From the NCBI RefSeq assembly GCF_000526515.1, contig NZ_JAGF01000001.1:1116001-1180000 (forward strand): a DNA stretch of 64,000 bases, given 5' to 3'. The notes beneath the pieces were generated by a model. That model did no database searches. It was not told where the DNA came from and saw only the letters and a list, made by a program, of their open reading frames with translations. This stretch comes from Cellulomonas sp. KRMCY2. Its GTDB lineage: Bacteria; Actinomycetota; Actinomycetes; Actinomycetales; Cellulomonadaceae. Below are positions 17,401 to 63,206 of this stretch, in pieces. Every line of letters starts with the position of its first letter. Position 1 is the first letter of the stretch. A program made the position numbers and the translations under genes.

Positions 17401-19018
17401 CCAGCAGCTCGGCCATCATGTGCGCGGCCGGCAGGGCCGTGTGCCCGAGCATCATCGGGTCGACCGGCAGGTCCAGCTGGACGCGCTCGTAGTGCTCGAT
17501 CTCGGACGAGGCGGTACGGATCACGTCGGAGAGCGGGAGCGTCTCGCGCAGCCGCCGGCCGGTGTCGATGCCGGCGAGCACGAGGAGGGACTCCGCGTTG
17601 CGGCGCATCCGGGTGGCGAGGTGGTCGAGGCGGAACAGGTCGGCGAGGGTCCTGGGGTCCTCTTCCGAGCGCTCCAGCGCATCGATGAAGGACAGCTGCC
17701 GGTTGAGCAGGACCTGGTCGCGACGGGCCACGTTGACGAACATCTCGGCGATGGACCCACGCAGGGCTGCCTGCTCCTGGGCCACCTGGATGGTCGTCGA
17801 GTTCACCTCGTTGAAGGCCGCGGCGAGCTGGCCGATCTCGTCCCTGCTGACCACCGGGATGTGCGTCAGGGTCAGGTCGGGGCCCTGGCCGGGGATGGCC
17901 ACCTGGTCGACCAGTCGTGGCAGCTCGTCGCGGACCATGGCGGCGGCCTCGGTCAGGCGCCGCAGCGGGTTGATGATCTGACGCGCGATGGCGAGGGCCG
18001 CCATGACGGACAGGATGAGCGCGGCGGTGGCACCACCGATGGTCACGACACTGGTCCGCAGGGCGGCAGCCGCGACGGCGCTCGCTCGGGTGGCCGCAGC
18101 CTGGCGGAGCTCGGCCGCCACGGGCTCGAAGGCCTCGATCTCAGCGGTGGCGGCGACGGTCCATGCGGCGGAGTCGATGAAGTCGAAGTTCTGGGTGTCA
18201 CCGGTGGACATCAGGGTCCGGTAGCTGTCGTACGACTGGAAGCCGTTGAACGAGGCACCCAGCGGCGGCAGCAGCACGCTGTCGCCCAGGTCGAGGGCTC
18301 GGATCGTGGTGTCGGTCTGCGAGTGCGAGATCTTGGAGGCCGGGAACAGCTGCGCGAGGGAGAGGAACTGCGCGGGCTCACGGGCTCCGTCGAGGATCTC
18401 GACACCCAGCGCCTGCTCCTGGTTGTAGTCCTCGACCAGCGACGTCAGCTCGGCGTTGGCGGAGATCACTGTCGCGAGACGCCGGTCGTCGAGCTGGTCG
18501 GCGACCTGCTTGGGGAAGGAGACGACGTCGTCGATCACGCCGGTGTAGTTGGCGTTGATCGCGCTCATCGGGACGTTCTGGGCGTCGATCCGCCCGCGCA
18601 CACCCTCAAGGCCCTGCAGCGCGCTGCGCATGTCGCGAACGGCGTTGGCGATCAGGATGTCGAGGGAGTCGAAGTCGACGTTCGAGACGGCCTGGCTGAA
18701 CTGGACGATCGAGTCGGTGGTGACCTGCCGGGACGAGTCGACCTCGGGCCGCAGGTCGGATGCGCTGGGCAGACCGGCGGGGCGGTTCTCGTCCGTGCTC
18801 GCGCTCGTGTACGGCAGCGCGGCCCGACGCTCGGCCTGGAGCGCGGTGACGACCTCACGCGACTCCTGCAGAACATTGAGCAGGGTGGTGACCGTCCGCG
18901 CCGTCTGCGCCTCCTGGATGGACTGCCACGAGACGAGGCCGGCCAAGAGGGTCAGGACGAGCACAGGCACGGAGAGGGCTGCGAGAACCTTCCCGCGAAT
19001 GCCCAACCTGCGAAGCAT
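14498..19018 (-). CDS. cvnA: Conservon sensor histidine kinase-like protein CvnA with a very long Ala/Pro-rich tail
   Basis: Membrane receptor of the conservon. ATG 19018 has GAAGGAGAG upstream. Order: membrane helix at 10-31, a nitrate/nitrite-sensing-type helical ectodomain to about 320, second membrane helix about 321-345, HAMP linker, then an HATPase domain about 525-650 (MMAELLENATVFSEPG, DQGLGM, RLGMFVVGRIAARLGA). No classical phospho-acceptor HisKA helix is evident, as usual for conservon receptors. From about 655 to 1506 the chain is low-complexity Ala/Pro/Val with short charged islands (RRGLFGRKRAKRD) and ends in a conserved-looking motif RDANQVRSLLSSFQSGTSRGR. The protein is roughly twice the usual length because of this tail, which is presumably disordered. 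Confidence 0.9.
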   Translation of the reverse strand: MLRRLGIRGKVLAALSVPVLVLTLLAGLVSWQSIQEAQTARTVTTLLNVLQESREVVTALQAERRAALPYTSASTDENRPAGLPSASDLRPEVDSSRQVTTDSIVQFSQAVSNVDFDSLDILIANAVRDMRSALQGLEGVRGRIDAQNVPMSAINANYTGVIDDVVSFPKQVADQLDDRRLATVISANAELTSLVEDYNQEQALGVEILDGAREPAQFLSLAQLFPASKISHSQTDTTIRALDLGDSVLLPPLGASFNGFQSYDSYRTLMSTGDTQNFDFIDSAAWTVAATAEIEAFEPVAAELRQAAATRASAVAAAALRTSVVTIGGATAALILSVMAALAIARQIINPLRRLTEAAAMVRDELPRLVDQVAIPGQGPDLTLTHIPVVSRDEIGQLAAAFNEVNSTTIQVAQEQAALRGSIAEMFVNVARRDQVLLNRQLSFIDALERSEEDPRTLADLFRLDHLATRMRRNAESLLVLAGIDTGRRLRETLPLSDVIRTASSEIEHYERVQLDLPVDPMMLGHTALPAAHMMAELLENATVFSEPGTPVHVSTGIDEDSVIITILDQGLGMTPDELVEVNLKIRKTSAGDVLGSQRLGMFVVGRIAARLGASADLTAGPDGRGTLVTIRMPRVLFVDPRSIPLTPPTAPAARVETFVLPEEAAEVVHDTAFAPAPAGVQDVAAGALGSAENPAEAVDLDALTDGATGRGLPRRRSRGADADAPAPSMLQREEDDAAAAPSIPLAPSADALASAAGVASPSDEAWAPQVVQSAPLSARRGGDAEAPPLPSRGGAELPSRSPAASSLPTRQPAGPVAAAAAPTSTPVAEPEGRAAMFSGFRSRRAELAAAAVHVETGDSWSDVPTGADGSDGAERLAAAAAGAAAFFGRGAGHDTGTGHDPDAHHDTPAEPAAPGPMAIPSLVDDDAEYGDPAFAPQAPVAQVDDAAEPFVPQITARQPFVPAPSEPAPFEPVAPRLFATQPFATQPLATPPVAAQPVERVAEAAAPAFAEPVVAPAPRRSPRHALPLDESEVHGPWMPAAPAHAAAWPPAAPAGADPNAPSEPVQAPQVEAWSTPQPTPVLEPDWAAEPSQAVQPLAWDVDDAQPWTVQAPQEVAPWAPDSRAPVAPEPEAVWPPAPVAVPAEVAPAAPADSVLPGAAWLADPAPAAAPAFSELVQGSNQSASAPAKPRRGLFGRKRAKRDVERAAEAAPVAAPIQQPFVAPPLGFPSVAPVRQSAWNNTDIGVHALPVPVAPADEPRVAEVPTWQAPVEPAAQAPVQAEPVWTPQTAWTAPPAQAPVVPAAPVAPAPSPGWAPTPAWSAKAPAAPSAPAPVRRPEPTAVVPTPHHSPFSIPTSFTPQSSSGSFDDEVTSMMAQRADIAQQALAELSQLSSYRPKAASSDGQTTLVRRTPNAIPAAPAIERRPVGQRTERDANQVRSLLSSFQSGTSRGRQAADEPGTVPAGQPHQATGSNGESRAGNEDGSDVDHGQPVTTPDTDLTQRSTSW

Positions 19019-42358: not shown

Positions 42359-42370
<12 letters not shown>
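41123..42370 (+). CDS. MFS transporter
   Basis: Twelve-helix major-facilitator protein of 415 residues starting MLQPYRQILARPGALAFSSAGVLARMPMSMVGIGIVLMVSD. It has a weak motif-A loop (SPPLARLVDQRGQARVMRP) and a second-half counterpart. The opening resembles actinobacterial efflux-type MFS proteins, but no substrate can be proposed. It is convergent with the following GGDEF-EAL gene, overlapping by 12 bases. The frame is open further upstream to 41054 without a ribosome site. Confidence 0.85.
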
Positions 42371-44515
<2,145 letters not shown>

Positions 44516-44629: not shown

Positions 44630-45712
44630 TCAGCCGATCGTCGCGCCGAAGACCGCACCGAGCCCGTAGGTCACGGCGGCCGCACCGGCGCCGATCGCGA
44701 GCTGACGCACGGCCCGTCGCACCGGCGGACCACCCGAGATGACCCCGACGCTCGCACCCGTGACCAGCAGGGCGAACCCCACGGCCGCCATGGCGACGAC
44801 CAGCGCGGACCCACCCTCGAGACCCAGCAGGAACGGCAGCACCGGGACGGCCGCCCCGGAGGCGAAGAAGCAGAAGCTGGACAGGGCTGCACCGACGTCG
44901 GTGCCCACCAGGTCGTGGTGCTCGGTCGACGGGTCGTCGGCGTGGTACTCCCGGCTCTCCGATCCGAGCACTGCGATGTCCGCCATGACCTCGTCCGCAC
45001 GCCGCTCGGCCTCGTCGACAGTCATCCCGCGGGCCCGGTAGACCAGGGCCAGCTCGTTGGCGTCGACGTCCAGGTGCGGCAGCGCGTCGCCCGCGGACAG
45101 GCTCGGGTTCGACGCGGCGAGCAGCTCGCGCTGGGAGCGGACCGAGATGAACTCACCGGCACCCATCGACAGGGCGCCACTGAGCAGACCGGCCAGGCCG
45201 GTGATCAGGACGAGGTGGGTCGGCGTGCCGGCCGCCGCGACGCCGATGACCAGCGCCAGGTTGGACACCAGCCCGTCGTTGGCCCCGAAGACGGCGGCCC
45301 GGAACGTCCCCGACAGCTGGTTGCGGCCCCGGGCCGCCAGCGCACGAACGACCTCACCGTGGATCCGCTCGTCGGCGGCCATCGCGGCGGTCGCGTCGAC
45401 GTCCGCGTCGTAGGTGGCCCGGGCCTCGGCACGCTGGGCCAGCGCCAGCACGAACACCGAACCGAACCGTCGGGCCAGCCAGGCGAGCAGCCGGAAGCGG
45501 GGGTCGCCCCGGTGCGGTGGGCCCACCTGGTCGCCGAGCAGGTGCTCCCAGTGGGCCGCGTGCCGCCCCTCGGCGTCGGCCAGGGCGAGCAGGATCTCGC
45601 GCTCCTCGCCGTGCCGGTGGCCGGCCAGGTCGCGGTAGACGGCCGCCTCGGCCCGCTCGTCGGCGAGGTGCCGCCGCCACCGGCGCAGGTCAGCAGGTGT
45701 CGGGGAGGTCAC
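44630..45712 (-). CDS. VIT1/CCC1-family iron/manganese transporter with ferritin-like domain
   Basis: Membrane metal exporter of 360 residues. The first about 130 residues are a ferritin/rubrerythrin-like helical domain with ExxxH-type ligands (ERAEAAVYRDLAG, ADAEGRHAAHWEHLL, QRAEARATYDADVD). The C-terminal VIT1 domain carries FGANDGLVSNLALVIGVAAAG and GALSMGAGEFISVRSQRELL, then a hydrophilic loop and three helices. This fusion is that of MbfA-type proteins that export iron (or Mn). The GTG start lies 79 bases from the upstream c-di-GMP gene. The neighbouring GGDEF-EAL paralogues suggest, but do not prove, a regulatory link. Confidence 0.88.
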   Translation of the reverse strand: MTSPTPADLRRWRRHLADERAEAAVYRDLAGHRHGEEREILLALADAEGRHAAHWEHLLGDQVGPPHRGDPRFRLLAWLARRFGSVFVLALAQRAEARATYDADVDATAAMAADERIHGEVVRALAARGRNQLSGTFRAAVFGANDGLVSNLALVIGVAAAGTPTHLVLITGLAGLLSGALSMGAGEFISVRSQRELLAASNPSLSAGDALPHLDVDANELALVYRARGMTVDEAERRADEVMADIAVLGSESREYHADDPSTEHHDLVGTDVGAALSSFCFFASGAAVPVLPFLLGLEGGSALVVAMAAVGFALLVTGASVGVISGGPPVRRAVRQLAIGAGAAAVTYGLGAVFGATIG

Positions 45713-45791: not shown

Positions 45792-47993
45792 TCACGCGCC
45801 GCCCAGGTGGTGCGAGGCGGACGCGGCACGCATGGTCGCGGCATCGGCCGCGATCACCCGGGCCACGTCCACGATCGACAACGGGCGGCCGAGCAGGAAG
45901 CCCTGGCCGTCGTCGCAGGCGAGCTCGACGAGGTCCTTGAGCTGCGCGACCGTCTCGATGCCCCCACCGACGACGCTCATGCCCAGCCCGTGCGCCATCG
46001 CGATGACCGCCGCGACGACCTCGCGGTCCTGCGCGGCCACGGCGAGCTGCTCGAGCTTCACGACGCCGACCGGGAACTGCGGCAGCCGCGCGAGCGAGGT
46101 GTAGGTCGCGCCGAAGTCGTCGACGGCGAGCTGGACGCCGAGGGACGTGAGCGCCTCCAGGGCCTCGTGCGCGTCCGGACCGTCATGGACCAGTGCCCGT
46201 TCGGAGATCTCCAGGCACAGCTGGGCCGGCGCCATCCCGTGCCGGTCGAGCGTCGCGGCGACCAGCTCGACGAAGTGACGTTCGCGCAGCTGGCGACCGG
46301 ACACGTTCACGGCCATCGTCAGCGGGGGGATCGCCGGGTCACGCTCGGTCGTCCACGCTGCGAGCTGCGCGCACGCGGTGTCGAGCACCCAGGCGCCGAT
46401 CGGGACGATCAGGCCCCGGGACTCGGCCGTGCCGAGGAAGTCCTTGGGGCGCAGCGTGCCGCGCTCGGGGTGCTCCCAGCGGATCAGTGCCTCGAACCCC
46501 AGCACCCGCTGGTCGCTGAGCGACAGCCGCGGCTGGTAGACGAGCGCGAACTCGTCGTTCTCCAGGGCACGTCGCAGCTCGACCTCGAGCTCGGCACCGC
46601 CGAGCGCGTCGGACGGCGCCTGCGGGTCGAAGATCTCGAACCGGTTCCGGCCGCTCTCCTTGGCCCGGTACATCGCGGCGTCCGCGCTGCGCAGCAGGGT
46701 CGACGAGCCGGCCTGGGGGTCGCTCGTGACCACCGCGCCGACGCTCGCCGACAGGCGCAGCGTCACGGTGCCGGCGTCGAACGGTTCGGCGAGGGCGTGC
46801 ACGATGCGCTCGGCGATCGCCTCGACGTCGTCGTCCGTCGGCACCCGGCCGCACAGCACGATGAACTCGTCACCGCCCAGGCGGGCGACCGTGTCCTGCC
46901 GCCGTCCGGCGCGCTCCAGGCGACGGGCGGTCTCGACGAGCACGCGGTCGCCGATCTCGTGACCGTAGCTGTCGTTGACGTCCTTGAAGTGGTCGAGGTC
47001 CACGAAGAAGAGCGCGAGCCGGTTCGGCGAGCGCTCCATCCGCACCAGGGCCTGGCCGAGCCGGTCGGTCAGCAGGTACCGGTTCGCCAGACCCGTCAGC
47101 GAGTCGTGCGTGGCCTGGTGGGCGAGGGCCTGCTCGGCGCGCTTGATCTCGGTGATGTCGCGCATCGAGGTCAGGACGCCGACGACGGCGCCGGTCGCGT
47201 CGCGGTCCGGCGAGAGGGTCGTGTGGAACCACTCCTCCTCGCCGTCCGGGCTGCTGTGCACCGAGAACTCGATGTCGTCCGGCTCGCCGGTCTCCAGCAC
47301 GCGGTGCAGGGCCGGCTCCCAGACCTCCAGCGAGCTCGCCGCCATCCCGGTCTCGCGGTCCGTCTTGCCGATCAGCTGGTCGAGCGTCATCCCGCGGGAC
47401 CGCTCGCCGGCGGGGTTGACGTACTGGTACCGGAGGTTGCTGTCGTACTTGACGATCGCATCCGTCGAGCCGTTCAGGACGTCGCGGAGCTGGGCCTCGA
47501 CCAGCATCACCTGGGCGTGGGCGTCCGATGACGCCTTCGCCATGCGGCCGATCTTCTTCTCGGCGCGCGCCCACCGGGTGACGTCCACCGAGTAGCCGAA
47601 GGTCCCGATGATCGTGCCGTCGACGTCGCGCAGGGGGAACTTGCTGGTCTCCACCCAGGTGCCGGGCCGGTCGGCCAGACGGTCGACCTCCGCCTTCTCG
47701 GTCACCGGCTCACCGGTGGCGATGATGCGCTGCTCGTCCGCGAACAGCTCGCGGGCATGGGCGTGGTCGGTCAGGTCGAAGTCCGTGAGCCCGATCATCT
47801 CCTCCGGGGTACGGCCGTTCACCTGGGCGCAGGCCGGGCTCACCCGGATGAACCTGCCGTCCAGGTCCTTGAAGAAGATGATCACGCCGGGCGCGTTGAG
47901 GAGGTTCGTCGCCCAGAACTCGTCCGGGAACGACTGCGCCACGATGTCGGCCGCGATCTCCGGCGCGGTGTCCGCGTGGGATCTGTTGCTCAT
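45792..47993 (-). CDS. PAS-PAS-GGDEF-EAL protein B with degenerate EAL site
   Basis: Paralogue of the protein at 42359-44515 with the same order: PAS (FFKDLDGRF), second PAS, GGDEF near 371 with I-site RRQD, EAL near 501. The same EAL changes recur: DDFGATYTSL, KLEQ and GGGIE. The loss therefore predates the duplication and is probably functional rather than recent decay. 733 residues from ATG 47993; the frame extends upstream to 48107 without support. It may be a diguanylate cyclase with an effector-like EAL, its activity set by the tandem PAS sensors. Confidence 0.85.
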   Translation of the reverse strand: MSNRSHADTAPEIAADIVAQSFPDEFWATNLLNAPGVIIFFKDLDGRFIRVSPACAQVNGRTPEEMIGLTDFDLTDHAHARELFADEQRIIATGEPVTEKAEVDRLADRPGTWVETSKFPLRDVDGTIIGTFGYSVDVTRWARAEKKIGRMAKASSDAHAQVMLVEAQLRDVLNGSTDAIVKYDSNLRYQYVNPAGERSRGMTLDQLIGKTDRETGMAASSLEVWEPALHRVLETGEPDDIEFSVHSSPDGEEEWFHTTLSPDRDATGAVVGVLTSMRDITEIKRAEQALAHQATHDSLTGLANRYLLTDRLGQALVRMERSPNRLALFFVDLDHFKDVNDSYGHEIGDRVLVETARRLERAGRRQDTVARLGGDEFIVLCGRVPTDDDVEAIAERIVHALAEPFDAGTVTLRLSASVGAVVTSDPQAGSSTLLRSADAAMYRAKESGRNRFEIFDPQAPSDALGGAELEVELRRALENDEFALVYQPRLSLSDQRVLGFEALIRWEHPERGTLRPKDFLGTAESRGLIVPIGAWVLDTACAQLAAWTTERDPAIPPLTMAVNVSGRQLRERHFVELVAATLDRHGMAPAQLCLEISERALVHDGPDAHEALEALTSLGVQLAVDDFGATYTSLARLPQFPVGVVKLEQLAVAAQDREVVAAVIAMAHGLGMSVVGGGIETVAQLKDLVELACDDGQGFLLGRPLSIVDVARVIAADAATMRAASASHHLGGA

Positions 47994-48133
47994 CGTCGCA
48001 CCAATCACCGGGTCCCGGGATGCCGTGAGGTCGCTCGACCGGTCGTGCACCTGGTCGGACCCACGTGCACGGAGCGGCCGGTCGGCACTCCGGAGCGCAG
48101 GTGGCACGATCCTACCGCCGGTCAGCAGCTCGG

Positions 48134-49339: not shown

Positions 49340-51655
49340 TCAACCGGTGAAGACCGCCCGCAGGTCCGGCCAGCGCTCGGCGCGGCAGTAGACCGGCACG
49401 ACGTCGCGCGGGACGTCGCGCTCGACCGTCCGGCCGCCGTCGTGCACGTCACCGGTCCACACGTCGACCCAGCTCCCCGCGGGCAGGTAGGTGCTCCAGG
49501 TCGTCGCGGCCGGCTGCGTCACCGGGTGCACGAGCAGGTCGTCGCCGAGGAGGAACTCGCCCGGCCGGTCCCACCCGGCCGGGTCGTCCGGCCAGTCGAA
49601 GAACAGCGCACGCATCAGCGGGCGATCGGTCGCGATGGTCGCTCGCGCCTGCTCGGCCAGGTACGGCACGAGCCGCTCGCGAAGCTCGGCGTACCGACGG
49701 AAGACCTCGACGACGTCGGGGTCGTCGTTGACCTCGGCGACGAACCACGGCGTCCGGTCCCGCAGCGGCCGGCGGTGGTGGTTGAACTCCGAGTGGTACT
49801 GCATGACCGGCATGAAGGTCGCCGCCGCGGCCGCGCGCAGGTAGAGCTCGGCGTCGGGCACCGGCCCGGAGAACCCGGCGAGGTCCCAGCCCCAGTACAC
49901 GATCCCGCACGCCGACGCCGTGATGCCCGCGGTCACCGAGTGCCCGAAGGCCTCCCAGGTCGAGTCCTCGTCGCCGGCCCAGAACAGCCCGTGCGCCTGG
50001 GAGCCCGTGAAGCCGGCGCGCGAGAACGTCACCGGGGCCTTGCCGGCCGAGCGCAGGAGGTCCCCGAACGCCCGTGCGTAGTGGACGGGGTAGCGGTTGT
50101 TGCCGTCGTCGCCGCGGGAGCCGTCGCCGTGGCGCAGGTCGTGGCCCCAGGCGTGCTCACCGCCGTCGGTCTTGAAGCCGTCGACGTCGAGGTCCTCGAC
50201 GAGGTAGCGCCGCTTGGCCGTCCACCAGTCCCGGCTCCGCTGGGTCGACAGGTCGGCCATCAGCGCCTGCGGGAACCACCAGCCGCGGTTGTGGTACGGC
50301 GAGCCGTCGGCCTCGAGCACCGCGTGGCCACCGGTCACCATGGCCCGCGCGTCGACGAGCACCTGGCTGTCGGCGACGACGTCCGGGCCCAGGTCGAACT
50401 CCGTCTTCTGCAGCGGGATCTGCCAGAGGATCACCTTGATCCCTCGGCGGTGCAGCTCGTCGATCATCGCCCTCGGGTCCGGCCAGGCGCCGTCGGGCGG
50501 GTAGGTGAAGTCCGCCGCCTGGTGCGCGGCACCGTCGGGTGTCACCGCATAGCGCGCATCGCGGAAGACGGTGATCCCGTGCTCGTCGCTCCATGCCTCG
50601 ATCACGACGGCGCCGACCGGGATCCCCAGGTCGCGGTGGCTGTCCATCTGCTCGGTCACGATCGACTGCGTGTTCCACTCGTTGCCCGAGGCCCACAGCC
50701 GGAAGACCCACGCGGGCAGCTCCTCGGCCCGCCCGACCTCGTCGCCGAAGGCCCGCAGGACCTCGTGCGGGGCGCCCCGGTAGAGGCCGACGTCCAGGGC
50801 CTCGTCCGGCGCGCCGCCGAGCTCGGCCTCGACGACGAGCCGGTCCGGCTGCGACGCGCCGACGTCGAACCAGGTCCGCCGCGCGGTCCGCACGTGCAGC
50901 CCCCAGCCCCGGCCGCCGACGACGTGCGCGAACGGCATCGGCAGGTACGTGCGGCCGTGCTCGCCCTGGGACTTGTACTGCTCGAACACGACCGCGTCGA
51001 GGCGCCGTCCGCGCTGGTCGACGGCGTCGAAGCGCTCGCCGAACCCGACGACGTGCTCCCGCGGTGCCAGGCGCAGCGCGAAGCGCACCCGTGCGACGCC
51101 GTCGGGCGTCCGCAGCCACTGCACGCTGCCCGGGACGAGGAGCTCGTGCGCCGGCTCGCCGTCGACGGTCAGCCGCCCACCCTCGGTGCCCCAGGTGCCC
51201 GCGGCCACGTCGTACCAGGGCGTGGTGTGCTCCGCACCGGCCGCCGTCCGTGCGACGAACCGGTAGCTGTAGGTCACGTCGGCCGTCAGCGGCGGGCTCG
51301 TCACCGACCAGGCACCGTCGGCCGCGAGCTGCGCCGCCTGCGCCTCGGCCAGGTGGCCCTCGCCACCGGCGAGCGCTGCGGCGTCGGTGGCCGAGGTGGT
51401 CGCCGGGCGCATCGGCAGCGACGTCGCCGCGCCCGCCGGGTCCTGCCACTGGCAGGTCACCTCGGTGACGTCCGGTGCGGCCACGACACCGAGCCGGACG
51501 GATCGGCCCGCCTCGGGCAGCACCGGGACCCGCTGGTCCGCGGACGTCGCGTAGGGGTGCTCGATGCCGTACGGGCGGTGCCGCACGACCGGGCCGGACG
51601 GGCCGGACGGGCCGGACGGGCCGGACGGCTCGGGTGCGGCGGGGGTGGCGGTCAT
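49340..51655 (-). CDS. Glycoside hydrolase family 31 (alpha-glucosidase/alpha-xylosidase type)
   Basis: Intracellular (no signal peptide) GH31 enzyme of 771 residues, last gene of the ROK-ABC-GH15-GH31 operon. The N-terminal beta-domain is followed by a TIM barrel. The catalytic nucleophile is Asp497 in DVDGFKTDGGEHAWG; other landmarks are WASGNEWNT, the acid/base region FWAGDEDSTWEAF and YWGWDLAGFSG. The N-terminus has a GPSGPSGPSG run from a 9-bp tandem repeat. It starts in an ATGA overlap with GH15. Partnered with GH15 and an importer it probably cleaves alpha-linked oligosaccharides taken into the cell. Alpha-1,3, alpha-1,6 or cyclic substrates are all possible. Confidence 0.9.
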   Translation of the reverse strand: MTATPAAPEPSGPSGPSGPSGPVVRHRPYGIEHPYATSADQRVPVLPEAGRSVRLGVVAAPDVTEVTCQWQDPAGAATSLPMRPATTSATDAAALAGGEGHLAEAQAAQLAADGAWSVTSPPLTADVTYSYRFVARTAAGAEHTTPWYDVAAGTWGTEGGRLTVDGEPAHELLVPGSVQWLRTPDGVARVRFALRLAPREHVVGFGERFDAVDQRGRRLDAVVFEQYKSQGEHGRTYLPMPFAHVVGGRGWGLHVRTARRTWFDVGASQPDRLVVEAELGGAPDEALDVGLYRGAPHEVLRAFGDEVGRAEELPAWVFRLWASGNEWNTQSIVTEQMDSHRDLGIPVGAVVIEAWSDEHGITVFRDARYAVTPDGAAHQAADFTYPPDGAWPDPRAMIDELHRRGIKVILWQIPLQKTEFDLGPDVVADSQVLVDARAMVTGGHAVLEADGSPYHNRGWWFPQALMADLSTQRSRDWWTAKRRYLVEDLDVDGFKTDGGEHAWGHDLRHGDGSRGDDGNNRYPVHYARAFGDLLRSAGKAPVTFSRAGFTGSQAHGLFWAGDEDSTWEAFGHSVTAGITASACGIVYWGWDLAGFSGPVPDAELYLRAAAAATFMPVMQYHSEFNHHRRPLRDRTPWFVAEVNDDPDVVEVFRRYAELRERLVPYLAEQARATIATDRPLMRALFFDWPDDPAGWDRPGEFLLGDDLLVHPVTQPAATTWSTYLPAGSWVDVWTGDVHDGGRTVERDVPRDVVPVYCRAERWPDLRAVFTG

Positions 51656-52815
51656 CGGTCGGAGCCTTCCGGGAGGAGGCCGAGCTCGTCGGCGAGGATC
51701 AGGAACATGCCGTGCGACCACAGCAGGGGCGAGGCGACCTCACCCCAGCGCTCGATCCACTCGGCGCGGTGCTCGGGGTGCAGCAGGTGGTCGGCGACCT
51801 GCTCGGGCAGGTACCCCTCGGCATCGGCCCGGTCGGCGACCCACAGCAGGTTCCGCAGGGCGGCCTCGCGGTCCCCCGCGACGGCGCGGTTCCAGCCGAG
51901 CAGGCAGGCGAGGAGCAACCACTGGCCGCCACCGTAGAAGACGTCGGCGCGGAACCGGTGCACCCCGCCGTCGACCTCCAGGTCCCGCGCGACGGCGTCG
52001 ACTGTCGCCTCGGCCAGGGCCGAGCCCGGGTCGAGCACGCCGAACGGGACGACGCAGGCGAGGAGCGACGCGTCGACCGCGTCGGACCCGAGCCACTTGG
52101 CCAGGTGCCGGGCACCGCGGTCACCGGCGCGCCCGCTGGTCGTGCCCGTCAGCAGGATCCGGTCCCGGGCTGCGTGCGCAGCACCCGTCGCGGCGATGGT
52201 CCGTGCGTCGTCGAGGACCTGCGCGTCGACGACGGCCATCAGGCCCGCGTGGATCGCACCGAGGGTCGAGACGTGCTGCTCCTCGACGTGCTCCTCCCAC
52301 CAGTCGTAGCAGGGCAGGTCCCAGAAGGTCACCAGGTAGTCGACCGCGACGGTGATGCCGGCGAGCCACCGGGTCAGCGGCACACCGTGCCGACGGGCGT
52401 GGGCCACGACGGCCCACAACCACAGGCCGTACCCGTCGGTCTGGAAGTCCCACCAGGGATCCGAGCCGTTGGCACCGTCGAAGGTGAAGCGCGTCGGCAG
52501 CATCGCGGCCAGCGGCACGTCGCGCCCGTCGGCCGTTGCGGTGCGCAGCGCCGCGACCTCCGCCGCACGTGCGCCCAGGACCCGGGCGACCCAGTCGTGG
52601 AAGCGGTCGGCCGAGTCGACGTCGCGGTAGCGGGAGATGCCCTCTGCCGTGAAGGCACCGTCCCGCAGCCACGCGTAGCCGCGGTAGGCGGAGAAGGTCG
52701 GCGAGGCGGGGTAGGCGCCGCCCGGGTCCTGGAGCCCGGTGATCACGGCGTGGCTGCGCCGGGCGAGGTCGGCCAGCCGTGCGACGTCGACGGTGGTCAG
52801 GGAGGTGTCGGTCAT
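51652..52815 (-). CDS. GH15-family glucoside hydrolase (isomaltose glucohydrolase-like)
   Basis: Cytoplasmic (alpha/alpha)6-barrel enzyme of 387 residues. Motifs typical of GH15 and its isomaltose/dextran-glucosidase relatives: YRGYAWLRDGAFTAEGISRY, DPWWDFQTDGYGLWLWAV, LPCYDWWEEHVEEQHVSTLGAIHAGL (general-acid region) and RWGEVASPLLWSHGMFLI (general-base region). It lacks a starch-binding domain and a signal peptide, which suits small imported oligosaccharides rather than starch. Translationally coupled to GH31 (ATGA). A hairpin separates it from the binding-protein gene. A close relative in Kribbella, as I recall, is an isomaltose glucohydrolase paired with a GH31; this should be verified. 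Confidence 0.82.
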   Translation of the reverse strand: MTDTSLTTVDVARLADLARRSHAVITGLQDPGGAYPASPTFSAYRGYAWLRDGAFTAEGISRYRDVDSADRFHDWVARVLGARAAEVAALRTATADGRDVPLAAMLPTRFTFDGANGSDPWWDFQTDGYGLWLWAVVAHARRHGVPLTRWLAGITVAVDYLVTFWDLPCYDWWEEHVEEQHVSTLGAIHAGLMAVVDAQVLDDARTIAATGAAHAARDRILLTGTTSGRAGDRGARHLAKWLGSDAVDASLLACVVPFGVLDPGSALAEATVDAVARDLEVDGGVHRFRADVFYGGGQWLLLACLLGWNRAVAGDREAALRNLLWVADRADAEGYLPEQVADHLLHPEHRAEWIERWGEVASPLLWSHGMFLILADELGLLPEGSDR

Positions 52816-52910
52816 GGCTCGCAGTCCTGGCAGGCGCAGGGCGCCGGTGGTGGTGCACGGGTGGGACGGGGCGGACGAGCGGCAGGGCGCTGCAGGGTGC
52901 GGCAGGGCGC

Positions 52911-52952
52911 GGCGGGCGGGACGGTCGATCGGGGTCGGCCGTCCCACCCGCC
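52911..52952 (-). terminator. Hairpin between the binding-protein and GH15 genes
   Basis: GGCGGGCGGGACGG (52911-52924) pairs with CCGTCCCACCCGCC (52939-52952) at 13 of 14 positions, seven bases past the binding-protein stop. Likely partial termination or a 3'-stabilising structure that boosts binding-protein mRNA over the hydrolase genes. Confidence 0.65.
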
Positions 52953-52958
52953 GTCGGG

Positions 52959-54260
52959 TCAGCCGAGGAGGGCGTTGACCCGGTCCTGCGCGTCGTTCAG
53001 CGCCTGCTCGACCGGCTTGCGACCGGCAGCAGCGTTGCCGAGCTCTTCGCTCACGATGTCCTGCATCTCCTGCTGGGACTCGATCACCGGCGGCAGCACG
53101 ACGGCGTCCAGGGAGTCGAACACGGCCTGGCGGTTGGCCGGCGGCGTGACGTCGAGGTAGGCCGCGACCTTGGACTCGTCGGCGACCGGCGGGAGCTCCC
53201 ACGAGGTGTCGAGGCGGGTCTGGACCATCTCGTCGGACGAGGTCAGGAACTCGACCCACTGCTGGGCTGCGTCCTTCACCTCGCTCGTCGCGGAGACGAC
53301 GACACCGTTGGTGAACATCGCCGACGCCTTGGTCGTGCTGCCCGGCTCGACGGCGATGTCCCAGTCCAGACCCTCGACGGCGCCGACGCCGCCGAACATC
53401 CAGATGCCGGTGTGCCACATGGCGAGCTTGCCGTCCATGAACAGGGTCGAGTCGAAGTCCGGGCTGCCCGCACCGTCGGCCTCGGTCGGCATCGTGGTGC
53501 CGGACTTGCCGACCAGCCAGGTCGCCGCCGCCACACCCTCCGGCCCGGCGAAGGTCGCCTCGGTCTTGTCCGCGTTGAAGAACTCACCGCCGGCCTGGGC
53601 CAGGGTCTTGTAGAACTCGTGGAAGGAGATCGGCTGGTAGTCGCCCCAGACACCGGCGGCGGTGTCGGTCAGCGCCTCGGCCGCGGCCTTCTCCTCGGCC
53701 CAGGTCCAGTCGGCGGTGGGGGCCTCGACCCCGGCGGCCTCGAAGAGTCCGGCGTTGTAGAAGAGCACCACGTTGGAGAAGGACTCGGGCAGCCCGAACT
53801 GCGTGCCGTCGAGGGTGAACGCGTCGAGCAGCGACTCCTTGTACGCCGCGCCGTCCACGCCCTCGAGCTCGGCGAGCGCACCGTTGGTCGCGTAGGTCAC
53901 GAAGTTCTCGTAGTTGAGCTCGAAGGCGTCCGCGACGGTCCCGCCGGCGACGGCCGTCTGCAGCGCCGTGAAGTAGTCGGCGTACGGCAGGGTCTCGACC
54001 TCGACGACGACGTCCGGGTTGGCGTCCTGGAAGGCCGTGACCAGCGCGTCGAGATCAGCCTCGTGACCGTCGTTGGCCGAGAAGTTCAGGTACCGGACGG
54101 TGACCGGCTCCTGCGCCCCGTCGGTCGCACCGGCCGCGGGTGCCGGGTCGCTGTTGGTCGCGGAGCCCTGGGTGCACGCGGTGAGCGTCAGCGCGAGCGC
54201 AGCCGCCGTGGCGAGGGTGGCGACCGCCCGCGAGCGGCGATGGGTCATGCTGCGGTGCAT
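52959..54260 (-). CDS. Sugar-binding lipoprotein of ABC importer
   Basis: Extracellular receptor for the oligosaccharide importer. The signal peptide has lipobox LTLTAC, with Cys at about residue 29. The mature domain (VTVRYLNFSANDGHEADLDALVTAFQDANPDVVVEVETLPYADYFTALQTAVAGG) is a cluster B / family 1 solute-binding protein, with aromatic-rich ligand loops (TADWTWAEEKAA, LAMWHTGIWMFGG). 433 residues. The ATG has AAAGGAAG upstream, stronger than the other genes of the operon. It is preceded by the two permeases and followed by GH15/GH31. Confidence 0.9.
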   Translation of the reverse strand: MHRSMTHRRSRAVATLATAAALALTLTACTQGSATNSDPAPAAGATDGAQEPVTVRYLNFSANDGHEADLDALVTAFQDANPDVVVEVETLPYADYFTALQTAVAGGTVADAFELNYENFVTYATNGALAELEGVDGAAYKESLLDAFTLDGTQFGLPESFSNVVLFYNAGLFEAAGVEAPTADWTWAEEKAAAEALTDTAAGVWGDYQPISFHEFYKTLAQAGGEFFNADKTEATFAGPEGVAAATWLVGKSGTTMPTEADGAGSPDFDSTLFMDGKLAMWHTGIWMFGGVGAVEGLDWDIAVEPGSTTKASAMFTNGVVVSATSEVKDAAQQWVEFLTSSDEMVQTRLDTSWELPPVADESKVAAYLDVTPPANRQAVFDSLDAVVLPPVIESQQEMQDIVSEELGNAAAGRKPVEQALNDAQDRVNALLG

Positions 54261-54380
54261 GGTGTCTTCCTTTCGTGGCGGACGGCATCGGTGCCGGCCG
54301 GTCGGGGGACTGCGGGTCCGGGGTCGCCGGAGCGGCCCGTCGGCGTGCGGGTGGTGCGGTCGGAGGGTTCGGGTGCCGGG

Positions 54381-55196
54381 CTACTTGATCCCGGTGTGTG
54401 CCATGCCGGCGATGATGTGGCGTTGGGCGACGAGATAGACGAGGGCGATCGGCACGATCGAGACGACCGAGCCGGCCATCACGACGTTCCACTCGGTGGT
54501 GAACTGACCCTGGAGCGTCGCGAGCCCGAGCGGCAGGGTCATCAGCTCCGACGAGCGGATCGCGACGAGCGGCCACAGGAAGCTGTTCCAGCTGCCCATG
54601 AAGGCGAACACCGCGAGGGTCGCCAGTGCGGGTCGCACGAGCGGCAGCACGATCAGGCCGAAGATCCGCAGGTGACCTGCGCCGTCGATCGTCGCGGCCT
54701 CGTCGAGCTCTACCGGGACACCCTCGACCGCCTGCTTGAGCAGGAAGATCCCGAACGCCGAGGCGATCGACGGTGCCAGCAGGGCGAAGTACGTGTCGTG
54801 CAGGTCGAAGATCGTCATCTCGATGAACAACGGGACGACCAGCACCTGCAGCGGGATCATCAGGGTCGCCAGGTAGAGACCGAAGATCACGTTCTTGCCC
54901 CGGAAGCGCATCCGGCCGAAGGCATAGGCCGCCGTGGCGCCGGTGACGAGCTGGAACAGGGTCGAGGCGATCGCCACACCGAACGAGTTCACGACGATCC
55001 GCCACATCGGCATCGCGTCGAACAGCGTGCGGTAGGCGTCCAGGGTCGGGTTCTCGACGACGAGCGTGGGGCCGCCGGCGAGCGACCCGCCCGGCGTGAT
55101 CGAGGTGATCACCGTCCACAGGAACGGGAAGAGCATCGCGACAGCGCCGAGGACGACGCCTGCGTACAACGCCGTGCGGCGCAGGGTCCTAGGCAT
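54381..55196 (-). CDS. Sugar ABC importer permease, MalG type
   Basis: Second membrane subunit (271 residues, six helices). EAA loop PVELDEAATIDGAGHLRIFGLIVLPLVRPALAT and C-terminal LVAQRHIIAGMAHTGIK. ATG 55196 has GGAGG nine bases upstream and overlaps the end of the previous permease by 8 bases. As with the other importer in the window, no ATPase is encoded nearby. Confidence 0.92.
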   Translation of the reverse strand: MPRTLRRTALYAGVVLGAVAMLFPFLWTVITSITPGGSLAGGPTLVVENPTLDAYRTLFDAMPMWRIVVNSFGVAIASTLFQLVTGATAAYAFGRMRFRGKNVIFGLYLATLMIPLQVLVVPLFIEMTIFDLHDTYFALLAPSIASAFGIFLLKQAVEGVPVELDEAATIDGAGHLRIFGLIVLPLVRPALATLAVFAFMGSWNSFLWPLVAIRSSELMTLPLGLATLQGQFTTEWNVVMAGSVVSIVPIALVYLVAQRHIIAGMAHTGIK

Positions 55197-56154
55197 GGGT
55201 GACCCACCTCCGCTGCCCGCGCAGCTGCACGGCGGTGATCGCAAGGATGACGGCGAACAGCAGCCAGGACAGTGCCGACGCCTGACCGGCCCGGCCGTAC
55301 CGGAAGGTCAGGTCGTAGATCTGCCCGACGACGACCTGGCTCGAACCGGCCGGCCCTCCCCCGGTCATCACGTAGACCTGGTCGAAGACCTGGAAGCCGT
55401 TGACGAGCGAGATGACCAGGACGAAGAAGGTCGACGGCGAGAGCAGCGGGAGCGTGATCAGCCGGAACCGCTGCCACGCGTTGGCCCCGTCGACCCGGGC
55501 GGCCTCCTGGATCTCGGCCGGGATCGACTGCAGACCGGCGAGCAGGATCACCATGACGAAGCCGAGGTCCTTCCAGGCCGAGGCGAGGATGACGGACGGC
55601 ATCGCCCAGGTCGGGTCGGTCCACCATCCGGGCTGGGGCAGGTGCAGGACGCCGAGGACCTCGTTGACCAGGCCGTTGCGCGGGTTGAGCAGCCACTGCC
55701 AGACCAGGGCGACCACGACCCAGCTCGTGACGACCGGCAGGAAGTAGGCGGCGCGGAACAGGCTGCGACCGCGCAACGCCTGGTTGAGCACCATCGCGAG
55801 CGCGAGGCCACCGACGTACACCAGGGGCAGGTAGCCCACGATGTACAGCAGCGTGTGGCCGAAGACGCGCCGGGTGGCCGGGTCCGCGATCAGCGTCGTG
55901 TAGTTGTCGAGCCCGACCCACTCCATCGCGGAGATCAGGTTCCAGCGGTGCAGGCTGACCCACAGCGAGCCGATCATCGGGGCGAGGGTGAAGGCGACCA
56001 GCGGGATCGCGCTGGGCAGCAGGAACGCGGTGACCCAGGCGGCGTTCTTCCGGCCGCGCCGGCGAGCCACGCCGGCTCTCGGCGTCCGACGGGCGAGGTC
56101 GGTCGACGCACGCATCGGGAGGCTCACGACGGCAGGTGGCTGGGTCATGGTCAT
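55189..56154 (-). CDS. Sugar ABC importer permease, MalF type
   Basis: First membrane subunit of the importer (321 residues). A basic cytosolic N-terminus ([17 protein letters not shown]) precedes six helices; the EAA loop is [31 protein letters not shown]. It starts in an ATGA overlap with the ROK repressor stop, so the repressor gene is the first of the operon and is translationally coupled to transport. Confidence 0.92.
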
Positions 56155-57380
56155 CGCCCGGGTCCGTTCGACGTCCGGCCCGCTCCGGCATGCAGCCGCT
56201 CACGGACCAGACGTCCTTGGTCACCGGCCGTGTCGGTGGCGTCGAACGGCGTGGCGAGCACCAGCGCGGCGGCACCGAGGGCCCACTTGTCCTCGGCCCA
56301 CGGCTCGATCACGAACGGGATGCCACGCCGGGCCGGCAGGAGGTGGCCGCGGAAGGACGGCTCGAAACCCGGCTCCCAGTGCTGCCACGCGTCGATGCCC
56401 TCACCGAGCAGGACGATCACCTCGGGGTCGACGGTGTGCACGATCCCGGCCAGGGCGCGGCCGAGCAGCGCACCGGCCTCGCGGTAGATCTCGAGCGCGA
56501 CGGCGTCGCCGCGGTCGGCGGCCTGGCGCAACCCGGCCGACGTGCCGCGCGGTCCGACGACCCCGCGCTCGAGGGCCGCGTGCAGCAGGGCGTCCTCGCC
56601 GACGTGCGCCTCGAGGCACCCGCGCGAGCCGCAGCCGCACAGCGGCCCGTCGAGGGTCATCGGCACGTGGCCGATCTCCCCTGCGCCGCCCGAGGCACCG
56701 CGGTAGACGGCACCGTCGACCACGATCCCGCAGCCGATGCCGCGGCCGATCGTCACCACGAGGTAGGAGCCGTGCTCGCGCCCCGTGCCGTAGAGCCGCT
56801 CGGCGACCGCGAGGGTGTTGACGTCGTTCTCGACCAGCACCGGGACGCCGAGCGCGGCGCGCAGGACTGCTCCGACGTGGGCGTCGGACCAGCCGAGGGT
56901 GGGTGCCTCGACGATGCCTGAGGCCTGCGAGTCGACCGACCCGGGGATGCCGACCCCGATGCCGAGCAGGTGACCGGCGTGGTCGTCCACCGCCGAGCCG
57001 AGGATGTGCCCGAGGGCGTCGAGGGCATCGGGTGCGCTCGGGTTGAACGGGTGGGAGGTCGAGCTCCGGACGGTGCCGTCGAGGTCGACGTCGACGATCG
57101 CGACGTGGTCGGCCGTGACCTTGGCGCCGAGCACCCCGCCGGCCGAGCGGACCAGGCCGAGCAGCCGGCCGGGGCGGCCACCCTGCGACGGGGCGTGCTC
57201 GAGCTCCATCACCAGGCCGCGGGCGATGAGGTCCCTGGTGAGCTGGGTGACCGTCGCCGGGCTGACGTCGAGGGCGCGGGCCACGTCGGCCCGGGAGGTC
57301 GGGCCACGCGTGCCGAGCAGCCCGAGGATCGCCGACGGGACGAGGTCGCCGCGGGCTGCTGGGCGGGGTGCGCCAGACAT
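56151..57380 (-). CDS. ROK-family transcriptional repressor
   Basis: Sugar-responsive repressor of 409 residues. The N-terminal winged helix ([35 protein letters not shown]) is fused to an ROK kinase-like fold ([39 protein letters not shown]). The zinc-binding [10 protein letters not shown] motif is intact. It heads the ABC-GH15-GH31 operon and probably represses it at the AT-rich site just upstream. The ATG has AAAGGAG four bases upstream. The DNA-binding domain makes a repressor far more likely than a sugar kinase. Confidence 0.92.
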
Positions 57381-57387
57381 CGAACTC

Positions 57388-57428
57388 CTTTGTTCAGCAC
57401 TTTATTTAGTCCCAAAGTAACTGCAAGG
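57388..57428 (-). promoter_or_regulatory. ROK operon promoter/operator
   Basis: An AT-rich island directly upstream of the ROK gene contains ACTTT (57399-57403) facing AAAGT (57414-57418), and a wider CTTTG (57388-57392) facing CAAAG (57413-57417). On the minus strand TTGCAG (57428-57423) could serve as a -35 with TAAAGT as -10. The symmetry and position fit autorepression by ROK. Confidence 0.5.
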
Positions 57429-57630
57429 TCCGACGACGTCAAGCCCCCACGGCCCAGCTGTCGGACCGGTGACTCCTGGCCGGCAAGCACGGATCTGACG
57501 GCGGGCAGGGGGCGGGCTCCCAGGTGACTCCCAGGCGGAGCACGTAGAGTCTGCTGCGGTCCGCCCTCGCGGACGGGTCGCCGGTGCGCCGAGCGCATGA
57601 CGGTGACGACCGACGATGAAGGACTGACAC

Positions 57631-60164: not shown

Positions 60165-60194
60165 GTGGCCCGCCCGCCTCGGAGGGCCCCTGCC

Positions 60195-63100
60195 ATGCGC
60201 ACCCACCTGTTCGACCCCGTCCGCTCGGCACTCTCCCGTCTGCGTCGCCCGTCGGCGCCTGATCGCCGACCCGCCGCACCCGACCCGGCGGCGCCCGTCG
60301 GCCCGGCCCGTTCCCTGCGGCGCCGACGCCGACGCCGCGCCGTCGCCGTGCTGGCCGCAGGCGCCCTGACCGCCGCAGGCCTCGCGGGCTCCGCCGCCCA
60401 GGCCGAGAACCGACAGGTCGGTGCGGGCAGCTACACCACCGACGTCGTCGGCCCGGCGCCGGAGGGCTGCGCCGCCCTGGCCACCGACCCACGGGCCTTC
60501 CTGACCGACGACGCACCGCTGGGCCCGGTCCCGACCAACGACTGGTGGTCGTCCCTGGTCCTCAAGAAGTGGAACTGCGCCACGAGCGAGCCGCTGCACG
60601 CCCACCCGGTGTCCTACCTGCCGAGCGCCGACGGCCTCGGGCTCGGCTACACGCGCGAGCCGACGATGTCCGGGACGCCCGGCGGGGTCGGCGAGTTCCA
60701 CCACGCGTACGCCCGCGACCTGCTGGTCGGTGTCGACGGCCTGGATGCACCGGTCGTCGAGGTCGCCGACTGGAGCGACTGGACCGTCACGCCGTCCTGG
60801 AGCGACGGCACCCGCACCCTCGAGGCCACCATCGGCCACGGTCTGCCGTTCAGCTGGTACCGGATGACCGGCGGGGACGCCGTCCTGACCGGCGCCGCCG
60901 ACCTGAGCGTCTGGCTCGACGACGGCGCCCGCATCGGCTTCACGTCGGGCGGCGCGGACTACGTCGCCTTCGCCCCCGCCGGTGCCGCCTGGACGACGTC
61001 GGGCACGACGCTCCGTTCCGACCTGGCCGGCGCCGGGTACCTGTCCGTGGCCGTCCTGCCGACCACGCCGCAGGACGACGACGCCGACCGCCGCGACCTG
61101 GCCGACGCGTACACGCCGTACGCGCACAACGAGGTGACCGGGACGCGCGCGGACTACGTCTACGACCAGTCGGCCGGCGTCGTGCGCACGACCTACTCGG
61201 TGCAGACCGAGGCACGCGGCGGCAGCGGCGGGGCCGGCGGGACCGTCGTGTCGCTCTACCCGCACCAGAGCCAGCACCTCGGCGACGTCGAGGGCGACAT
61301 CGGGACCTCCGACCGGAGCTTCGCCTCACCGCGCGGTGCCATGACGACCCTGGTGGGCGCGACCTCGTTCACCACGGTGACCCCGTTCACCGGCGTCCTG
61401 CCGGAGATCCCGGCCGTCGCGACCGGCGTCGGTGCCGCCGAGGCCCGCCTGGACGCCCTGCTCGACGAGGTGGCACAGGACCCGATGGGCCCGCCGGGGA
61501 GCGACACGTACTGGACCGGCAAGGCCCTGGGTCGCGCGGCCCGGATCGCCGAGATCGCCGACCAGGTCGGCCGCGACGACGTCCGCGACACCGCGCTCAC
61601 GCAGATCCGCAGCACCCTGACGGACTGGCTGACCGCCGACCCGGGTGAGACCGGACAGCTCTTCGCCTACAACGAGGCCTGGGGGACGCTGGTCGGCTTC
61701 CCCGCGTCCTACGGATCGGACAAGGAGCTCAACGACCACCACTTCCACTACGGCTACTTCATCACCGCGGCAGCGACCCTCGCCCGCTTCGACCCGGCGT
61801 GGGCCCAGTCCTACGGCGGCATGGTCGACCTGCTCATCCGGGACGCCAACGGCTACGACCGCGACGAGACCCGGTTCCCGTACCTGCGGGACTTCGACAT
61901 CTACGCCGGCCACGACTGGGCCTCCGGGCACGGGGCGTTCGCGGCGGGCAACAACCAGGAGTCCAGCTCGGAAGGCATGAACTTCGCCGCCGCGCTCGTC
62001 CTGTGGGGCGAGGCGACCGGTGATCGCGATGTCCGGGACGCGGGCGCCTACCTGTACGCGACCCAGGCGGCCGCGATCCAGGCCTACTGGTTCGACGGCT
62101 CCGGGGCGATCCCGGACGGCTTCGGGCACTCGACCGTCGGCATGATCTGGGGCGACGGCGGCGCCTATGCCACCTGGTTCAGCGCCGAGCCGGAGATGAT
62201 CCAGGGCATCAACACCCTGCCGATCACCGGCGGGCACCTGTACCTCGGGATCCGGCCGGACGACGTCCGCGCCAACTACGCCGAGCTGGTCACGGCCAAC
62301 CACGGCAACCCGACGGTCTGGCAGGACATCGCGTGGTCGTACCTGGCCCTCGGCGACGGACCGGCGGCGCTCGCCGCTCTCGACGCCCAGCCGGGCTACC
62401 CGGTCGAGGAGGGCGAGTCCCGGGCGCACACGTACCACTGGGTGGCCAACCTCGCGGCCCTCGGCACCCTCGACACCACCGTCACGGCCGACCACCCGCT
62501 GGCCGCGGTGCTCACCCGCGACGGCGGACGCACCTACGTCGCCGCGAACGTCACGGCCGAGCCGCTCACGGTGACCTACTCGGACGGGACGACCCTGTCC
62601 GTGGCACCGGGGCAGACCGCGACCACCGGCGCGCACACCTGGAGCGGCGGATCAGGCACCGGGGGGCCGGGCGAGCCGACACCGACGCCGACGTCCACAC
62701 CGACTCCGACCCCGACACCCGACCCGACGACCCCACCGACCGACGCGGCCTCCCCGCTGTACCTGAGCGCGGACGGCCTGTCGTCGGCGCCCGGCTCCGG
62801 GGTCGCGACCCTGCGGCCGACCAGCGGGCCGGACGCCGTCGGGGACCCGGCGACGGGCCGCTCGTTCGAGGTCGCCGACCTGGACGGGGCCTTCACCGGC
62901 GGGAAGACCGGCGTGGCGATCGGCCTGGACGCCGGGACGTCGGTCGGCAACGCGACCCGGCTGCGGGTCTCGTACGACCTGACCGGCGACGGCACGTGGG
63001 ACCGGGTGGAGACCTACCGGTACTTCCCGACCGACCCCGTCGTGGGGTGGGAGGCGTACCGCGAGACCCAGGGTCTGACCTCGGCCGACGGCCTCCTGGC

Positions 63101-63206
63101 CGACCTCGACGGCGGGACCGTTCGGGTCGAGCTGTGGAACGTGATCGGCGCCGGCACCACCGACGTCGACCTGACCGGATCGGTGCTGCTGCTGCCCTAC
63201 CGGTGA
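60195..63206 (+). CDS. Secreted GH81 endo-beta-1,3-glucanase with C-terminal CBM
   Basis: Exported laminarinase-type enzyme of about 1,003 residues, attacking beta-1,3-glucan of fungal or algal walls. The N-terminus is a long basic stretch with seven consecutive Arg before a hydrophobic core and AQA cleavage site. The GH81 domain covers about residues 60-740 (GPVPTNDWWSSL, LNDHHFHYGYFITAAA, DWASGHGAFAAGNNQESSSEGMNF with the catalytic Glu pair, then HSTVGMIWGDGGAYATWF). A Thr/Pro linker (PTPTPTSTPT) leads to a C-terminal about 145-residue module resembling beta-glucan-binding CBM56. ATG 60195 has GGAGG upstream; GTG 60165 is an alternative. Confidence 0.9.
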   Translation: MRTHLFDPVRSALSRLRRPSAPDRRPAAPDPAAPVGPARSLRRRRRRRAVAVLAAGALTAAGLAGSAAQAENRQVGAGSYTTDVVGPAPEGCAALATDPRAFLTDDAPLGPVPTNDWWSSLVLKKWNCATSEPLHAHPVSYLPSADGLGLGYTREPTMSGTPGGVGEFHHAYARDLLVGVDGLDAPVVEVADWSDWTVTPSWSDGTRTLEATIGHGLPFSWYRMTGGDAVLTGAADLSVWLDDGARIGFTSGGADYVAFAPAGAAWTTSGTTLRSDLAGAGYLSVAVLPTTPQDDDADRRDLADAYTPYAHNEVTGTRADYVYDQSAGVVRTTYSVQTEARGGSGGAGGTVVSLYPHQSQHLGDVEGDIGTSDRSFASPRGAMTTLVGATSFTTVTPFTGVLPEIPAVATGVGAAEARLDALLDEVAQDPMGPPGSDTYWTGKALGRAARIAEIADQVGRDDVRDTALTQIRSTLTDWLTADPGETGQLFAYNEAWGTLVGFPASYGSDKELNDHHFHYGYFITAAATLARFDPAWAQSYGGMVDLLIRDANGYDRDETRFPYLRDFDIYAGHDWASGHGAFAAGNNQESSSEGMNFAAALVLWGEATGDRDVRDAGAYLYATQAAAIQAYWFDGSGAIPDGFGHSTVGMIWGDGGAYATWFSAEPEMIQGINTLPITGGHLYLGIRPDDVRANYAELVTANHGNPTVWQDIAWSYLALGDGPAALAALDAQPGYPVEEGESRAHTYHWVANLAALGTLDTTVTADHPLAAVLTRDGGRTYVAANVTAEPLTVTYSDGTTLSVAPGQTATTGAHTWSGGSGTGGPGEPTPTPTSTPTPTPTPDPTTPPTDAASPLYLSADGLSSAPGSGVATLRPTSGPDAVGDPATGRSFEVADLDGAFTGGKTGVAIGLDAGTSVGNATRLRVSYDLTGDGTWDRVETYRYFPTDPVVGWEAYRETQGLTSADGLLADLDGGTVRVELWNVIGAGTTDVDLTGSVLLLPYR

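Follow-up and report, generated by a model that had tools for sequence, protein, structure and literature searches.

On the minus strand of the Cellulomonas sp. KRMCY2 genome, six closely spaced genes for a ROK-family regulator, two ABC permeases, a lipoprotein and two glycoside hydrolases raise the question of which sugar the cell imports and degrades with them. The initial annotation of the 64,000-nucleotide stretch of DNA analysed here (the window) had read these genes as a ROK-ABC-GH15-GH31 operon for an unusual alpha-glucan oligosaccharide. It pointed to a similar GH31/GH15 pair from Kribbella that acts on a cyclic nigerosyl tetrasaccharide, here termed cyclobis-(1->6)-alpha-nigerosyl (CNN, also called cyclic nigerosyl-nigerose or cycloalternan), and named isomaltose, nigerose or panose-type sugars as alternatives.

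Organization of the operon

All six genes of the tight operon (49340-57380) are present on the minus strand as annotated, and each family was confirmed with Pfam. In order they encode a ROK-family transcriptional repressor with an N-terminal winged helix (56151..57380; Pfam ROK, 1.1e-50), ABC sugar permeases of the MalF/UgpA type (55189..56154) and of the MalG/UgpE type (54381..55196; both Pfam BPD_transp_1), a lipoprotein solute-binding protein with the lipobox LTAC (52959..54260), a GH15 protein of 387 residues (51652..52815) and a GH31 protein of 771 residues (49340..51655). The ROK gene and the first permease gene overlap as ATGA, as do the GH15 and GH31 genes, and the two permease genes share 8 bases, so that translational coupling seems likely for most of the genes; the binding-protein gene is set apart by 120 bases on its upstream side and 143 bases on its downstream side. 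The longest open reading frame for GH31 (793 residues, from a GTG at 51721) is too long, and the ATG at 51655 is preferred, where the start overlaps the GH15 stop and the protein begins near the start of its homologues. Measured as the best 12-residue Kyte-Doolittle mean within approximately the first 40 residues, hydrophobicity reached 2.1 in the binding protein but only 0.9 in GH15 and -0.1 in GH31, which agrees with the annotated lack of a signal peptide in either hydrolase and makes both predicted cytoplasmic enzymes. NCBIfam models matched the operon genes below their cut-offs only, as alpha-xylosidase-, amylase- or trehalase-like; the comparisons below give these genes a well-supported predicted function.

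The flanking genes are unrelated to the operon: upstream, on the opposite strand, lies a gene for an FKBP-type isomerase, and the downstream neighbour encodes a methylenetetrahydrofolate reductase. Further upstream, the plus strand carries a large and apparently secreted protein of GH81, an endo-beta-1,3-glucanase family (60165-63206), which is not evidently linked to the operon. On the minus strand, a gene for a VIT1-like membrane protein (44630-45712) separates two genes for similar large proteins (42359-44515 and 45792-48107) that by eye resemble PAS-GGDEF-EAL cyclic-di-GMP enzymes.

The hydrolases are closest to enzymes of CNN breakdown

The GH31 protein aligned over nearly its full length with Kfla1895 (PDB 5X3I; 1112 bits, 70.5% identity) and also strongly with a second GH31 structure (PDB 5F7S; 967 bits, 60.4% identity), whereas matches to the cycloalternan-forming enzyme Lmo2446 (433 bits) and to YicI (142 bits or less) were much weaker. 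The structure entries read 'Glycoside hydrolase family 31', and we take their organisms to be Kribbella flavida and Trueperella, respectively. The Pfam model AIMA-like_N ('1,3-alpha-isomaltosidase-like') matched the N-terminus (1.8e-36). Residue D497 lies at the position of the aspartate that is changed to alanine in the 5X3I chain and is taken as the nucleophile, and from the GH31 motif D562 is presumably the acid/base. By these measures the protein falls within the CNN-hydrolase (1,3-alpha-isomaltosidase) group and is predicted to be cytoplasmic. A cycloalternan-forming transferase would come from the same GH31 branch and could account for the 433 bits to Lmo2446, but the match to the hydrolase Kfla1895 reaches 1112 bits and the N-terminus has no signal peptide, which makes such an assignment barely credible.

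For the GH15 protein the closest solved homologue was the isomaltose glucohydrolase 5Z3A (530 bits, 68.5% identity), the only other solved match being dextran dextrinase at 22 bits. Both catalytic glutamates are kept, the general acid as E174 and the general base as E338, located through the two glutamates that the 5Z3C and 5Z3E chains replace with alanine. According to PMC12446779, 5Z3A is the Kribbella flavida enzyme and isomaltose glucohydrolase belongs to the inverting enzymes of GH15 (EC 3.2.1.205); for CNN catabolism the same article cites Tagami et al (2016, J Biol Chem 291:16438), and GH31 enzymes that form and degrade cycloalternan are described in PMC9061262. The likeness to the Kribbella pair is thus borne out for both hydrolases, and the closest characterised homologues act on the same sugar rather than on unrelated substrates.

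Import and sugar binding

The best PDB match of the lipoprotein was Listeria Lmo0181 (5F7V; 335 bits, 45.6% identity), with the next best at 83 bits, and 5F7V is a complex with CNN (PMC7676653). Among 73 orthologues of the binding protein, conservation is at least 97% at 75 residues that also occur in Lmo0181; 17 of these are aromatic or histidine. By sequence, the protein is therefore assigned to the Lmo0181 type and not to the maltose binders, and it is a predicted CNN binder; because it is only 46% identical to Lmo0181, relatives of CNN such as linear isomaltosyl-nigerose or alternan fragments could be further ligands. The six-gene operon contains no ATPase gene. An ATPase of the MsiK/UgpC type, above its family cut-off, is encoded elsewhere in the genome (G000:C1:677913-679034), and we infer that the importer uses a shared ATPase of this kind.

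Conservation of the arrangement in actinomycetes

A contig scan of genomes recovered orthologous loci, 80 in all, spread over many genera of actinomycetes, the closest being that of Cellulomonas timonensis (GH31, 77% identity). The same six genes occur in the same order and orientation at 66 of them, which indicates that the arrangement is not due to chance; four loci end at a contig edge yet keep the GH15-GH31 pair, and three begin inside GH31. GH15 is absent from seven (L014, L034, L054, L060, L066, L073 and L077), showing that the isomaltose step is not fixed. In two of the seven, a GH13 gene resembling oligo-1,6-glucosidase directly follows GH31 (L014:12280-14004 and L077:12197-13903). When GH13 was sought beside GH31 by tblastn with one clear GH13 as the query, these were the only loci in which it adjoined GH31; for the remaining five, GH13 enzymes are encoded at other places in the genome. 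The adjoining GH13 is likely a non-homologous replacement for the isomaltose step, an arrangement that was not found in the literature searched. At four of the GH15-less loci (L054, L060, L066 and L077) the ROK gene faces away from the permease genes. Of 200 genomes sampled within this family, 23 contained the GH15, a patchy accessory trait; among actinomycetes the CNN pathway occurs widely but unevenly.

Homologues of the cycloalternan-forming enzyme adjoin related operons

At 21 of the 80 loci, mostly from Nonomuraea and its relatives, a second GH31 gene (38-41% identity) lies near the operon, and 17 of these 21 also have a third, more distant GH31. The second GH31 was checked against Lmo2446 at one locus, that of Nonomuraea thailandensis (L057, 12318-15590), where it matched with 1124 bits over approximately 1060 residues and has a signal-peptide-like N-terminus. 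The third GH31 of this locus (approximately 15587-18412) is secreted and ends in a starch-binding-type domain resembling the one of maltotetraohydrolase; such a domain would be expected of the 6-alpha-glucosyltransferase partner, which this protein may be. The presence of ring-forming-enzyme homologues near the operon provides evidence, independent of the operon's own genes, that its sugar is CNN and not isomaltose, nigerose or panose.

Two other kinds of substrate were weighed. Isomaltose, nigerose, panose or general isomalto-oligosaccharides draw on the activity of the Kribbella GH15 homologue on isomaltose, but the nearest relatives of the GH31 and of the binding protein are CNN-specific, and the other GH31s of known grouping in the genome are of different kinds; with an Lmo0181-type binding protein and cycloalternan-forming-enzyme homologues beside approximately a quarter of the related loci, these alternatives of the initial annotation have lost ground and are now very improbable. 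It is also improbable, if slightly less so, that the operon serves linear gluco-oligosaccharides with alternating alpha-1,3 and alpha-1,6 links (from alternan or opened CNN), with CNN as a minor or shared substrate. The two enzymes would be suited to these links as well, and homology cannot separate the ring from the opened ring; however, the closest solved binding protein is in complex with CNN itself, and it is ring-forming-enzyme homologues that adjoin related operons.

We conclude that the six genes very probably form an inducible catabolic operon for CNN. This ring of four glucoses is made from starch by other microbes and is almost certainly what the soil actinomycete imports. According to the model, the lipoprotein would bind CNN outside the cell and the two permeases would import it, powered by the ATPase encoded elsewhere; in the cytoplasm, GH31 would cut the alpha-1,3 links of the ring to yield isomaltose, which GH15 would cut to glucose.

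A conserved palindrome upstream of the ROK gene

The best PDB match of the ROK protein was Listeria Lmo0178 at 161 bits, not much above its matches to NagC/Mlc-type proteins. In most related loci the palindrome ACTAAATTTAGT precedes the ROK start by some tens of bases, and in the window the putative ROK operator ACTAAATAAAGT (57399..57410, minus strand) agrees with this consensus at 10 of 12 positions. Matches of at least 10/12 to a consensus derived from the very loci in which it was counted occurred in 51 of 74 upstream regions, compared with 8 of 1480 further stretches drawn from those loci, the true site perhaps lying within some of them, and with 2 of 1480 shuffled sequences. An extended form of ACTAAATAAAGT had a single match in the 4.5-Mb genome when up to two mismatches were allowed. 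Conservation upstream of ROK together with a single genomic copy suggests self-repression and a regulon of one operon; no such palindrome upstream of ROK turned up in the literature searched. The ROK protein would repress its own operon from this site, near the transcription start, until a pathway sugar is present. Just before the operator-like site, a possible weak promoter, TTGACG-17-TACTTT (57414..57442, minus strand), was noted by eye; it fails the consensus scan, which on the operon strand returned neither a promoter nor a terminator.

A probable user, but not maker, of CNN

The genome contains four full GH31 genes, the catabolic one and three others, of which one is alpha-glucosidase II-like and two are YicI-like, one of this pair being judged by similarity only. 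Searching the whole genome with a cycloalternan-forming enzyme returned only the catabolic GH31 (40% identity) and other GH31 groups; a secreted cycloalternan-forming enzyme was not found among the GH31s of the genome, and a search of the genome for an alternansucrase-type GH70 found none. As no CNN-making enzyme was found in the genome, the strain is probably able to use CNN but unable to make it, and probably scavenges it. The chances are about even that it is a dedicated scavenger, with importer, hydrolases and a private one-site regulon and without ring synthesis, living on a 'private' sugar produced from starch by neighbours, Nonomuraea for example. If so, the strain would be cross-feeding on a carbohydrate open to few other organisms, or stealing it. 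The split between maker-and-user genomes and user-only genomes makes a test of cross-feeding possible. A short GH31-like stretch elsewhere (G000:C1:2547791-2547952; 118-residue open frame, 40 bits) is perhaps what is left of a gene, or else belongs to a larger, unrelated frame.

Comparison with known systems

The Kribbella flavida CNN pathway combines the same families, a GH31 and a small cytoplasmic GH15 (70.5% and 68.5% identical to the proteins described here), and as far as tested the two systems differ in organism only. The K. flavida locus is outside the set of 80, where other Kribbella species show the same gene order. The cycloalternan pathway of Listeria monocytogenes provides the nearest solved regulator, Lmo0178 (ROK), and the nearest solved binding protein, Lmo0181. 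In addition, Listeria produces cycloalternan itself, using Lmo2446, whereas a search of the Cellulomonas genome found only its catabolic GH31 and other GH31 groups. Listeria finishes cycloalternan breakdown with other glucosidases instead of GH15. The pathway of Arthrobacter globiformis for cyclic maltosyl-maltose (CMM; cmmA-G, PMC7676653) follows the same logic, from extracellular starch to a cyclic tetrasaccharide, ABC import and cytoplasmic cleavage, but its ring is maltosyl-maltose, its enzymes are GH13 and its binding protein is only approximately 20% identical to Lmo0181. The pathway is already known from Kribbella and Listeria, and the operon is a well-supported new example rather than a new system; what is added is small, namely a conserved palindrome resembling an operator, the likely GH13 replacement and the probable split between makers and users.
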